Origin: Bacillota bacterium
GTDB lineage: Bacteria > Bacillota > Bacilli > Alicyclobacillales > SLC66
Assembly: GCA_021793015.1 (NCBI GenBank)
Contig: JAJYTO010000002.1
Coordinates: forward strand, 1-64,000
Length of the DNA stretch: 64,000 nucleotides
Direction: 5' to 3'
Made by a program: the position numbers and the translations under genes
Shown here: positions 6,711 through 60,240 of the stretch, piece by piece
Position numbering within the stretch: position 1 is the stretch's first letter
How the letters are laid out: the number at the start of each line of letters is the position of its first letter
Notes under the pieces: generated by a model
What the model was told of the DNA's origin: nothing
Seen by the model: only the letters and a program-made list of their open reading frames with translations
Database searches by the model: none

Positions 6711-6725
6711 GAATAATGATGGTCC

Positions 6726-6847
6726 GCGACGGGCGCAATATATGACTCCTCCCCTAGCGGGCCTTGTACCTGTGAAAAACACTGCAGCCGCATTTTCATT
6801 CCGCTGATACTGACGCGCGGCAGTGAGATTTTGCTTCGCAAAACTCA
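6726..6847 (-). repeat. Family A structured repeat, inverted partial copy (A1)
   Basis: Reverse complement contains TGAGTTTTGCGAAGCAAAATCTCA ... GCAGTGTTTTTCAC..AAGGCCCGCT.GGGGAGGAGTCATATATTGCGCCCGTCGC, co-linear with 14284-14406; second arm of the long hairpin absent. Confidence 0.8.
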
Positions 6848-14240: not shown

Positions 14241-14283
14241 GGGCATCATGTACACATGTGGACTCCCACGGACGGATCATGCC

Positions 14284-14478
14284 TGAGTTTTGCGAAGCAA
14301 AATCTCATAGCTTGTGCGCCGCCATCAGTGAATGAAAAAGGCGTCGGCAGTGTTCTTCACGAATGCAAGGCCTGCTCAGGGAGGAGTCATATATTGCGCC
14401 CGTCGCGAGTTCAGCGACAGCGGTGTCTGAGCAGGGGCGCAATATATGACTCCGACCGGCACAGACCACCGTGATTTT
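14284..14478 (+). repeat. Family A structured repeat, fullest copy (A2)
   Basis: Hairpin 1 TGAGTTTTGCGAAGCAAAATCTCA (14284-14307); hairpin 3 arms GGAGTCATATATTGCGCCC (14383-14401) / GGGCGCAATATATGACTCC (14435-14453); tail CGACCGGCACAGACC..GATTTTCAG. Confidence 0.85.
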
Positions 14479-14498
14479 CAGGTTAGAGGAGGGTTCCC

Positions 14499-15338: not shown

Positions 15339-16433
15339 ATGTTGGTACGCAAATTGATTCAGCTCTTCTTCTTCATTATCGGTCTGGCTTTGGGCGGAGC
15401 CTACGGAGATCGCGCGTTCGCACTTATTCATGTTCATATATTCCCGTGGGAATCCGTGGCGTCTGCCATCCTGGGTGGAGTCGTCGCTCTTTTTCTCGGC
15501 ACGTTTGTGGTGGACCCACTGGTCAATTGGTTTCACTGGCTGGAAGACAAACTCATTCACACTCCGCTTGTCGATCTTCTGTCGGGTGTACTCGGGTTGG
15601 TCATTGGTTTTGTCATTGCGTTTGTGGTGACGCCCGCCATTGGCGAAATTCCGGTGGTCGGGGTGTTCGTCCAGTTTTTTGCGTCGCTTCTGCTCGGTTA
15701 CCTGGGGTTCCGCATCTTCTTTTCACGGCGCGAGGAGATTTTTTCGCTGCTTCCGTCGCTGCTCGCCAAGTCTTCCAGGGACCGGGATAAGGCGGCGCGG
15801 ACTGCCTCGCCCGCCCATCGCGCCGGCGAGGCCAAGCTTCTTGATACGAGCGTGATCATAGACGGGCGCATCGCGGATATTGTCCAGACGGGGTTCCTTG
15901 ACGGCGTCCTGATCATTCCGTCGTTTGTGCTGGAGGAACTGCAACACATCGCCGACAGTTCCGACGTGCTGAAACGGAACCGCGGACGGCGCGGACTGGA
16001 CATTTTGAACCGCGTCCAGAAGGAACTCAAGGTCAAGGTCCAGGTGCTTGAAATCGACTTTGAGGAGTTGTCGGAGGTCGACAGCAAACTGGTCAAGCTG
16101 GCCAAACAGTTGAACGGCAAAGTGGTCACGAATGACTTCAACCTGAACAAGGTTTGTGAATTGCAAGGGGTGGATGTCCTTAACATCAATGATCTGGCCA
16201 ACGCCGTCAAACCGGTGGTTCTGCCCGGCGAGGAGATTACGGTGCAGGTGATCAAGGACGGGAAAGAGTATGGCCAAGGGATCGGCTATCTGGATGACGG
16301 GACCATGATCGTCATAGAGGGCGGCCGGGAGTTTATCGGGCATCGACTGGATGTGCTGGTCACCAGTGTCTTGCAGACATCTGCGGGGCGCATGATCTTT
16401 GCCAAGCCCAAGATGCTTGAAAAGGCTCTATGA
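15339..16433 (+). CDS. PIN/TRAM domain membrane-anchored protein (YacL-like)
   Basis: N-terminal TM helices; [44 protein letters not shown]-like C-terminus. Confidence 0.9.
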
Positions 16434-16437
16434 GGCA

Positions 16438-16581
16438 GTCCGAAAAGGGTCGAGAACTCCGCGTTGCGGGGGCTCGGCTTGCGCCGGACAGGTGTGCTCA
16501 TGCACCGCGCATGAACCTTGCGCGCACCTGTCCGTGCTTCACCAATCCTCCGCAAGCGTCTTGCCTCGACCCTTTTCGGAC
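16438..16581 (+). repeat. Family B structured repeat copy 1 (B1)
   Basis: 17-bp perfect terminal inverted repeat GTCCGAAAAGGGTCGAG / CTCGACCCTTTTCGGAC; inner stem GGACAGGTGTGC / GCGCACCTGTCC; closely similar, equal-length copy at 24742-24885. Confidence 0.9.
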
Positions 16582-16624
16582 ACACATTTTATGAGCGCTG
16601 GATAAGTCGATGCTGTCGTGACGG

Positions 16625-22114: not shown

Positions 22115-23332
22115 ATGATAAAGACAAGACGTCGAGTGGGAAAACAGGGAACGGGGACGCGCAAGGACGAAAGCCGCTCCAGGCGGTCGGCGCCGCGCCG
22201 TGAAAATATTGGGACTGCCCGCAGTTCGCGCGGGTCCTCAGAAACAGTACGGGAGTATGGCCGGGGCCGCCCCTCCGAATCGACGTCGGAATACGGCCGG
22301 GGCCGCTCCTCTGAGTCAGCGCCGGAGTACGGCAGGCGCCGGTCTTCCGAATCGGCGTCGGAATACGGCCGGGGCCGCTCCTCTGAGTCAGCGCCGGAGT
22401 ACGGCAGGCGCCGGTCTTCCGAATCGGCGCCAGAACTCGGCAGGAGTCGTGATCGAAGTCGCACGGAGGTCCCGGCGCGCGGCCGTCGCAATCGCGGTGT
22501 GGGAAAATCGGCGCGAACAGCGCGAACAGCGGGAAGACCGAGTCGCCGCGCCGTCGGGGGTGCGGTTGAACAGGAACAGAACAGCCGCGAACAGGAGTTT
22601 GTCGCAGGTCGGCGCGCGGTGCTGGAGGCCCTGAAGGGAGGGCGGTCGCTCAACAAGATTTTGTTGCAGGACGGTTCCGCCGGCGGCAGTCTGAATGAAA
22701 TCGTCGCAGTGGCAAGAGAAGTCGGTGTGGTAATTCAATATGTCCCAAAGATCAAGCTTGATGAGATATCGCCGGAGCGTGGTCACCAGGGAATCATCGC
22801 GTATGCGTCGGCGAAACCGTATGTTGAAATCGATGATCTCATTGAACGGGCGCGTGACCGCCAACCAGGGCTGTTCGTCCTGCTCGACGGGCTGGAAGAT
22901 CCGCACAATCTGGGGTCCGTGTTGAGATCTGTCGACGGCGCAGGAGGGCAGGGTGTGATCATTCCCAAACGGAGAGCTGTTCCGCTCACTGGAACGGTCG
23001 CCAAAGCGTCTGCGGGTGCGCTGGAGCACGTGGAAGTGGCTCGCGTGGCCAATGTCAGCCAGGCCCTGCAAAAACTGAAAGACGCGGGATACTGGGTGAT
23101 TGGAACGGCGACCGACGCGCCGCAACCGTACTGGGCTGTCGATTACACGGTGCCTGTTGTGCTCGTGATCGGCGGCGAAGGCTCCGGTATGAACCGTCTC
23201 ACCAAAGAACGGTGCGATACGCTCGTCTCCCTGCCTATGAACGGACAGTTGAACTCCTTGAACGCCGGTGTGGCGGCGGGCATTCTGTTATACGAAGCAG
23301 TTCGCCAACGCAGCCTGGCGGGAAGCGTATAA
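22115..23332 (+). CDS. rlmB: 23S rRNA 2'-O-methyltransferase RlmB/TrmH family with repetitive N-terminal extension
   Basis: EFVAGRRAVLEAL, VLLDGLEDPHNLGSVLRSVDGAG, VIGGEGSGMNRLTKERCD; N-terminal EYGRGRSSESAP repeats. Confidence 0.9.
   Translation: MIKTRRRVGKQGTGTRKDESRSRRSAPRRENIGTARSSRGSSETVREYGRGRPSESTSEYGRGRSSESAPEYGRRRSSESASEYGRGRSSESAPEYGRRRSSESAPELGRSRDRSRTEVPARGRRNRGVGKSARTARTAGRPSRRAVGGAVEQEQNSREQEFVAGRRAVLEALKGGRSLNKILLQDGSAGGSLNEIVAVAREVGVVIQYVPKIKLDEISPERGHQGIIAYASAKPYVEIDDLIERARDRQPGLFVLLDGLEDPHNLGSVLRSVDGAGGQGVIIPKRRAVPLTGTVAKASAGALEHVEVARVANVSQALQKLKDAGYWVIGTATDAPQPYWAVDYTVPVVLVIGGEGSGMNRLTKERCDTLVSLPMNGQLNSLNAGVAAGILLYEAVRQRSLAGSV
22252..22440 (+). repeat. 36-bp tandem repeats (72-bp higher-order unit) inside rlmB
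   Basis: GGAATACGGCCGGGGCCGCTCCTCTGAGTCAGCGCCGGAGTACGGCAGGCGCCGGTCTTCCGAATCGGCG repeated at 22288 and 22360. Confidence 0.9.
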
Positions 23333-24726: not shown

Positions 24727-24741
24727 TGATTTCTAGAGGTT

Positions 24742-24885
24742 GTCCGAAAAGGGTCGAGAACTCCGCGCTCTTGGGGCCCGGCTTGCGCCGGACAGGCGTG
24801 CTCATGTTCCGCGCATGTACACTGCGCGCGCCTGTCCGGGCTTCACCAATCCCCCGCAAGCGTCTTACCTCGACCCTTTTCGGAC
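24742..24885 (+). repeat. Family B structured repeat copy 2 (B2), inside secE-nusG
   Basis: Same 17-bp terminal inverted repeat as B1; 144 nt; AGAGGTTGTCCG 5' flank. Confidence 0.9.
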
Positions 24886-24927
24886 ACACATTTCTAGTGT
24901 AGGAGGTGCGGGCTCCCGCCCTCGCTG

Positions 24928-36433: not shown

Positions 36434-36440
36434 ACCTTCA

Positions 36441-36511
36441 TGCCTGTTGGAGTCATATACTGTGCCCCCCCTGCTCAGACATGGCTGCGCCAAACTCGCC
36501 ACGGGCACAGT
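36441..36511 (-). repeat. Family A structured repeat, inverted degenerate copy (A3), downstream of rpoC
   Basis: Reverse complement: ACTGTGCCC-GTGGCGAGTTTGGCGCAGCCATGTCTGAGCAGGG-GGGCACAGTATATGACTCCAACAGGCA. Confidence 0.75.
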
Positions 36512-36590
36512 GTCGGGGCGAAGCGTCGGGGGACTTCGCGGCTTCGCTCTCTACTTGACACTGTCCGAGTCGCGGTGATAGTATACCGAA

Positions 36591-42152: not shown

Positions 42153-42396
42153 TTCTTAATGTTGGTTTCAGACTGCGATGAAGCAAAAGGTTGCTCAAGT
42201 ACCGACTGCCATATGCGGTACCAATGAGGTGAATTTTTGCGGAGTATGTCCAAACGGCATGCAACGAAGGCGAACGCGCAACCCCCCGCGCATGGGCTCC
42301 AGTGCCGCCAGTGGTACGGAACTCAAGTTTTTGGTCTGCGCGTTTGGGGTCGTCCGTCATTGCCGTGAATATTGGGCGACGAAGGAGGGAATTCAT

Positions 42397-42705: not shown

Positions 42706-42766
42706 AAGATAAGCTTTGATGCCGCTGCGCGGCACCAACAACCGGGAAGAAAAAGCGCCTGCGGCG

Positions 42767-42795
42767 TTTTTCAGGATAAGGCCAGGCAATGGGAG
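42767..42795. repeat. Possible family A fragment / AT-capped hairpin between rpsJ and rplC (A7)
   Basis: GAAAAAGCGCCTGCGGCGTTTTTCAGGATAAGGCC resembles the A-element segment preceding the long hairpin. Confidence 0.4.
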
Positions 42796-46599: not shown

Positions 46600-46740
46600 C
46601 AGGGCGCCTGCGGCGATTCTCGGGCTTGGACGGCTCATGCATGCCGATGCAGCGAGTATTAGCGGCCGTCAGGCCGCGGCTGTCTGAGCGGCAGCGGCAT
46701 GCATGAGCCGTCCGGCGGGCACAGACCAGCGATTTTCTGA
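46600..46740 (+). repeat. Family A structured repeat with re-evolved stem (A4), between rpsC and rplP
   Basis: Perfect 19-bp arms GGACGGCTCATGCATGCCG (46628-46646) / CGGCATGCATGAGCCGTCC (46695-46713); loop retains GCGAGTATTAGCG...TGTCTGAGC and tail CCGGCGGGCACAGACCAGCGATTTTC. Confidence 0.8.
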
Positions 46741-51169: not shown

Positions 51170-51310
51170 TGCGGCTCCGGCGTTTTTCAGGGATGCCAAG
51201 CCGACTTGGGGAGGAGTCATGTATTGCGCCCGTCGCGAGTTTGGTGACAGCGGTGGACTTCGCAGGGGCACAATACATGACTCCGACCGGCAGGGACTAT
51301 GTTTCAGGAC
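51170..51310 (+). repeat. Family A structured repeat (A5), between rpsE and rpmD
   Basis: Arms GGAGTCATGTATTGCGCCC (51213-51231) / GGGCACAATACATGACTCC (51266-51284); loop GTCGCGAGTTTGGTGACAGCGGTGG. Confidence 0.85.
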
Positions 51311-59797: not shown

Positions 59798-59804
59798 ACC
59801 CCAA

Positions 59805-59945
59805 AAAGGCGCCTTCCGCATTCTCTACAGGCGCAAGACCCGCTTGGGGAGGAGTCATATATTGCGCCCATCGCGAGTTTAGCGACGGCGCTGTCCGAGC
59901 AGGGGCGCAATATATGACTCCGACCGGCACGGACAATCTTATGTT
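59805..59945 (+). repeat. Family A structured repeat (A6), between rpsI and its terminator
   Basis: Perfect arms GGAGTCATATATTGCGCCC (59851-59869) / GGGCGCAATATATGACTCC (59903-59921). Confidence 0.85.
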
Positions 59946-60062: not shown

Positions 60063-60205
60063 GTTCAAGAAGGGGTCAGGTAAGACCCAAGCAGTGCAAG
60101 GAAGCGAGCCAAGAATGCGGACCGAGCGTACGTTTTGGGTACGTGAGGGAGTATTCTTGGCGCTGACGCCGCAATGCGCCGGGGAGTTCTGACCCCTTTT
60201 TGAAC
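60063..60205 (-). repeat. Family C (B-like) structured repeat, minus orientation
   Basis: GTTCAAGAAGGGGTCAG / CTGACCCCTTTTTGAAC terminal inverted repeat; inner GCCAAGAAT/ATTCTTGGC and GCGTACG..CGTAC stems; in reverse complement shares AGAACTCC, GTCTTACCT and AGAGGTTGT flank with family B. Confidence 0.85.
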
Positions 60206-60240
60206 AACCTCTTATAGCAACGCAGAGGGGAGGCAATATC

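Follow-up and report, generated by a model that had tools for sequence, protein, structure and literature searches.

The window, the whole 64-kb stretch of DNA analysed here, comes from genome G000 (a 3.82-Mb assembly in 321 contigs) and carries dispersed copies of a multi-hairpin element, the fullest of which lies on the plus strand at 14260–14484 if the empty site in G001, a genome of the same genus, defines its limits. These limits, slightly wider than the 14284–14478 given in an earlier note on this DNA, enclose units together with the remnant of a delta unit at the left edge. The element comprises a small left hairpin at 14284–14307 (TGAGTTTTGC-GAA-GCAAAA-T-CTCA, with one unpaired T), of a type that recurs as a separate module beside many units elsewhere; the 5′ arm (14383–14401) and 3′ arm (14435–14453) of a core hairpin delimited by covariation and a covariance model; the conserved loop between them, GTCGCGAGTTCAGCGACAGCGGTGTCTGAGCAG (14402–14434), in which GCGAGT is invariant across 53 aligned copies; and the right end GATTTTCAGGTT (14473–14484), with the consensus GATTTTCCGGGAT among 78 right ends compared, all on the plus strand. 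The loop and tail are as recognisable as the earlier note had held, and all six copies that it listed are present at about the positions it gave. With 14284–14478 as the query, blastn/nhmmer searches of the window returned 59803–59940 (E 2e-26), 51171–51299 (E 4e-20), 6724–6847 on the minus strand (E 4e-20) and 36439–36513 on the minus strand (E 2e-7). For copies 51170–51310 and 59805–59945 the covariance model places the core hairpins at 51210–51287 and 59848–59924, both on the plus strand; the copy at 6724–6847, absent at the corresponding G001 site, is truncated and lacks the 3′ arm of the large core hairpin, and that at 36439–36513 is a core-hairpin copy with a divergent stem, downstream of an rpoC-like ORF. 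A separate subfamily (delta) is represented on the plus strand at 46628–46713 (covariance-model match, E 9e-12), where the loop contains an inserted hairpin, the stem is the wholly different one ascribed to A4 in the earlier note, and the right end TTTTCTGAAT follows at ~46742. The seventh copy, missing from the earlier list, is a minimal (gamma) unit on the plus strand at 42711–42777, consisting of a left hairpin and a short right hairpin, GAAAAAGCGCC-TGC-GGCGTTTTTC, with AGAT at its flank and CAGGAT as its end.

Further features of the window include an S10-Clostridia ribosomal protein leader identified by Rfam at 42170–42273 (37.3 bits, E 0.00056), which heads the ribosomal operon; a ~72-bp repeat within a long ORF at 22228–22444, with copies 87% identical; and genome-repeated 14-mers at 60069–60212, with GGGGTCAGGTAAGACCC, unrelated to the elements. 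A second repeat family, found at 16427–16589 and 24732–24893, consists of imperfect palindromes bounded by terminal inverted repeats GTCCGAAAAGGGTCGAG; G001 lacks the copy at 24732, as does G002, also of the same genus, the target duplication being ~8 bp (ATTTCTAG), and this family is a classical MITE of the terminal-inverted-repeat (TIR) type.

Comparison of 78 right ends and 76 left ends of the multi-hairpin element defines a unit which follows a flanking GGAT, begins with AGACTTTCATG, continues through a left hairpin, the unpaired spacer CACCAACAACCGGGAA and a right hairpin bounded by GAAAA and TTTTC, and terminates in CCGGGAT. The left hairpin takes the form GGCGC-TTGC-GCGCC, or one like it, or else is the 24-nt TGAGTTTTGC-GAA-GCAAAATCTCA. 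In minimal units, according to folding, GAAAA pairs with TTTTC to close off a short right hairpin, GAAAATNCGCC-TGC-GGCGATTTTC, in which one base is unpaired; in long units they surround a large domain that holds the core hairpin, and many copies have a right hairpin enlarged in this way by the 76-nt core. Delta, type I and type III cores have different stems around a common loop, GCGAGTT...GTGTYTGAG. Unit length ranges from 67 to ~225 bp, too short for a transposase gene, and units are arrayed head to tail, with the GGAT that closes one unit doubling as the left flank of its successor; of 36 minimal right ends, 25 finish in GGAT. DNA folding of a 69-bp unit gives two hairpins, the first starting 10 nt inside the left tip, the second stopping 6 nt short of the right tip, and the aligned ends contain no terminal inverted repeat, the left end AGACTTTCATG being unrelated to the right end TTTTCCGGGAT. 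The hairpin feet are CATG and GGAA/GGTC, without GT[AG]G and with no obvious complement of GGAT that would serve, by canonical pairing, as a counterpart of the guide tetranucleotide which in IS200/IS605 elements lies 5′ of each hairpin and pairs with the cleavage sites. Another module, AACCAACATGGCCTGACGG...GGCAAGTTGCCGTATAAAA, occurs both alone and within element arrays (L135, L143, L150; L144:13766–13869).

The element family is real and far more numerous than six copies. When the fullest copy was searched against G000 by blastn, 207 first-look candidates came up, 40 of which were scored, and 15 arrays were counted in an unselected 357 kb of this genome (picked by contig number, content ignored), extrapolating to ~160 genome-wide. 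In the sampled DNA, 98 stems scoring at least 12 flank GCGAGTT, against none for four other 7-mers. The core hairpin was modelled by covariance from alignment A1, and the resulting model (R1) matched at least 81 times in each of G000, G001 and G002, 41 times in G010, from another genus of the same family, and 12 times in G005, from a third genus; it gave no match in any of the order's remaining 54 genomes, nor in 398 other Bacillota genomes, for which 12 candidates per genome were scored, such that weak or rare copies could be missed. The G010 elements share the same architecture, with GGGT flanks and wholly different stems. Copies recur in the genome and its relatives, in keeping with the earlier note, and they match no family in Rfam, searches at gathering and permissive thresholds returning no match on the elements and no meaningful weak one. 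No element was found among PLSDB plasmids, or among viral contigs searched with three exact patterns. In G031, a member of another family, three copies lie on a single contig (L033, contig C17), of which two are minimal units that are whole or almost whole and none has a core hairpin; identity of up to 95% between these minimal units and the query, together with their confinement to one contig, suggests a probable arrival by horizontal transfer.

The conserved loop around which the 19-bp stem covaries is GTCGCGAGTTYRGCGACAGCGNTGTCTGAGCAG. When 53 distinct cores are compared, double-sided changes occur at each of the 16 outer-stem pairs tested, pairing is kept in 98.6% of cells, and the covariation score reaches 0.469, against 0.168 ± 0.009 for shuffled and 0.04–0.14 for slid controls, which bears out the compensated stem changes described in the earlier note. 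Among 13 distinct model-found matches from G005 and G010, with wholly different stems, 15 of 16 pairs change on both sides and the score is 0.615 against 0.170, in an alignment that is model-fitted, hence biased towards the model, and whose weakest row (E 0.026) is perhaps a hairpin that arose by chance. Few stem changes are one-sided: 1,784 stem pairs in 94 distinct cores include 25 G:T, 10 A:C and 19 other mismatches. For the left hairpin, covariation scored by regular expression gave 0.59 paired against 0.46 shuffled, in a register too ambiguous to interpret. A candidate pseudoknot that would pair the loop's CTGAGC with a GCTCRG upstream of the core was rejected on an extended alignment judged by eye, in which the variants do not covary. 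Stem covariation could arise from selection on the folded strand or from arm-to-arm copying within the palindrome, and the data fit both. Strong covariation around a conserved loop would also be expected of a selected cis-acting RNA (a leader, or an element for processing or termination) that had spread in modular form among transcription units, as would the position of several window copies directly upstream of start codons; the wobble strand asymmetry, 25 G:T against 10 A:C, agrees with such an RNA and fits single-stranded DNA equally.

Orthologous sites in sister species are, however, empty, and copies lie within coding sequences, neither of which favours the cis-acting RNA. A 69-bp minimal unit in G001 (L077) is missing from G002 (L104) between flanks 99% identical, the junction GTCAGGAT|AGACTTCC...CCGGGAT|CGAAG corresponding to the empty site GTCAGGAT^CGAAGCC; since G000 also lacks the unit, it is most simply read as an insertion in the G001 line. 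This unit (L077, ~19075) is in frame within an ORF, to which it adds 23 codons and no stop. Comparison of G000 L213 with G001 L265 reveals a 92-bp unit at TCGGGAT^AGACCG, interrupting in G000 the gene of an HxlR-like regulator (so named by eye) that is intact in G001, and comparison of G000 L126 with G002 L084 a composite of >300 bp at AGGGGAT^AGGTG. The window element at 14260–14484 is absent in G001, where CACATAT^AGAGGAGGG stands for CACATGT|GGACTCCC...CAGGTT|AGAGGAGGG, and arrays of close genomes differ by whole units (L079/L107, L088/L099, L129/L103). The two cleanest recent insertions are without the core hairpin, which is therefore dispensable for movement. The left-flank consensus over 52 sites, some of which follow an older unit and are thus not all independent targets, is G (.63), G (.65), A (.71), T (.75); together with three clean empty sites it places insertion 3′ of a fixed short sequence, and as GGAT is common to the target and the element 3′ end, target duplication and pre-existing target are indistinguishable. 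The empty sites in sister species, among them the clean insertions of 69 and 92 bp within coding sequence, identify the elements as recently active, mobile and non-autonomous, and not primarily as cis-RNA of conserved operons. The earlier description of an element of conserved operons is accordingly not sustained, with orthologous sites empty, some copies interrupting or extending coding sequences, and both orientations relative to genes represented.

Orientation was compared with the leading strand as marked by GC skew over 20 kb, a proxy that agrees with regional gene direction (79:10). Elements are oriented with the leading strand 95:29 overall and, when classed by flanking genes (signs relative to the leading strand), 47:9 for ++, 18:7 for +−, 17:10 for −+ and 13:3 for −−. 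The last class, in which both flanking genes run against the leading strand (p = 0.02), separates replication from transcription, though with only 16 arrays; an earlier count based on gene direction instead of skew had given an undecided 11:9 for the class with both genes opposed. Of 122 arrays, 20 oppose both flanking genes. A cis-acting RNA is poorly reconciled with these 20 arrays and with elements that follow the leading strand where transcription disagrees, and is judged improbable as the main explanation. The earlier note had left open a selected RNA or single-stranded DNA structure: the evidence favours the DNA half, whereas a primarily selected RNA is disfavoured by an orientation that follows replication and not local transcription. 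Where the element strand is the leading strand, it lies on the lagging-strand template. The orientation of IS608 and ISDra2 likewise mirrors the direction of replication, with use of the lagging-strand template (PMC5371812, PMC6006769); as a point against the single-strand reading, replication-linked orientation is known in other IS families too (PMC5371812).

GGAT or a close variant on both sides of clean insertions could also indicate a 4-bp target duplication made by a DDE transposase, in which case the repeats would be ordinary MITEs. This is considered rather unlikely, given the lack of terminal inverted repeats, a strong fixed target preference that coincides with the element's own 3′ end, the replication-linked orientation and the different appearance of true MITEs with TIRs and target duplications in the same genome, namely the second family described above.

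Matches to PF01797 number 13 in G000, six in G001 and eight in G002, and a scan of the loci and stretches around them in these three genomes yielded no tnpA with matching ends. Among the scanned loci, only one standalone tnpA (L167, 149 aa) adjoins an array, 94 bp downstream of it and without IS ends of its own. Its position has a bearing on whether the repeats are REP/REPIN-like and owe their spread to a resident TnpA-REP (RAYT), perhaps this very gene, a reading that would also account for short, intergenic hairpin repeats in high copy number. The hairpin foot is nevertheless without GT[AG]G, each element has two hairpins and a defined target and end, the L167 gene is flanked by an array on one side only, and G001 has just a fragmented relative of it, all of which leaves this reading a small probability. 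Resident IS605/IS200 copies that were examined have ends and targets unlike those of the elements; ~1.39 Mb of sampled DNA contained non-coding units only and no ORF-bearing unit with element ends. Direct reading covered about 1.05 Mb of G000, and an autonomous copy is possible in the remainder or in assembly gaps. At the scanned Y1 and TnpB loci, element copies are sporadic and without systematic association; a tandem-repeat locus near a G001 Y1 gene was set aside, its repeats lying within a coiled-coil-like ORF and being unrelated to the elements. The presence of TnpB genes in the genomes, and of a structured, loop-conserved domain directly inside the right end, would suit a core hairpin acting as a guide-RNA scaffold (TnpB omega-RNA-like) of non-autonomous elements, yet a core copy is near only two of 30 TnpB loci, no covarying pseudoknot was found and recently moved units are without the core, making a guide-RNA role very improbable.

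The repeats are probably non-autonomous, modular, PATE/IS200-like single-strand elements, mobilised in trans by a Y1/HUH transposase. Junctions, target consensus and empty sites place the insertion of a unit 3′ of GGAT-like targets; since each unit itself finishes in GGAT at its 3′ side, further units could be added beside old ones to build arrays. The orientation bias and the anatomy suggest that the transposase, supplied in trans, would act during replication by recognising the hairpins on the lagging-strand template, and the core hairpin, where it enlarges the right hairpin, may serve as a recognition or folding module dependent on shape and loop. More doubtfully, the elements may form a separate single-strand family, the mobiliser of which would not be a recognised IS200/IS605 TnpA, with the loop-conserved, stem-variable hairpin as a dedicated recognition domain that compensation of one arm for the other has maintained from genus to genus.

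By anatomy the elements are PATE-like and by behaviour of IS200/IS605 type, with membership not claimed, since an IS605-type relative in the host was sought and none was found. Palindrome-associated transposable elements (PATEs) of Haloquadratum walsbyi (PMC3119063) likewise have near-terminal palindromes and neither terminal inverted repeats nor a transposase gene, are short (down to 52 bp) and very numerous, and cause differences between strains; the present elements, in a Bacillota host as opposed to haloarchaea, differ in matching no IS605-type element found in the host, in forming arrays and in carrying a long covarying core hairpin. PATEs, moreover, leave no target duplication and have ends resembling those of an IS605-type transposon of their host; here the GGAT common to target and element end fits a duplication and a pre-existing target alike, and the resident IS have other ends. 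With IS608 and ISDra2 of the IS200/IS605 group they share subterminal hairpins, the lack of TIRs, insertion 3′ of a short fixed sequence and an orientation that follows replication, but have neither tnpA nor tnpB, and their target is GGAT. The targets of IS608/ISDra2 are TTAC or TTGAT. REP/BIME sequences with TnpA-REP (RAYT) are comparable in being repeated hairpins between genes that a Y1 protein probably mobilises in trans; here, by contrast, the GT[AG]G foot is missing, each unit has two hairpins and defined tips, and no REPtron was found. We know of no sequence relation between the elements and BOX of Streptococcus pneumoniae. BOX (PMC3049150) is similarly modular and multi-hairpin, with a variable number of units and a likely effect on co-transcribed genes, but differs in having TIRs and target duplications.

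The elements amount to very small (down to 67–69 bp) and numerous mobile DNA, the target, end structure and replication-linked orientation of which can be read from empty sites, with a core hairpin whose stem is free to change provided that pairing is kept. Covariation alone, the usual sign of a functional RNA, can arise in mobile single-stranded DNA hairpins or through arm-to-arm correction, which calls for caution in RNA discovery. The mobilising enzyme, once known, would show how a transposase can read shape and loop as against stem sequence, and whether such a family is maintained wholly in trans.
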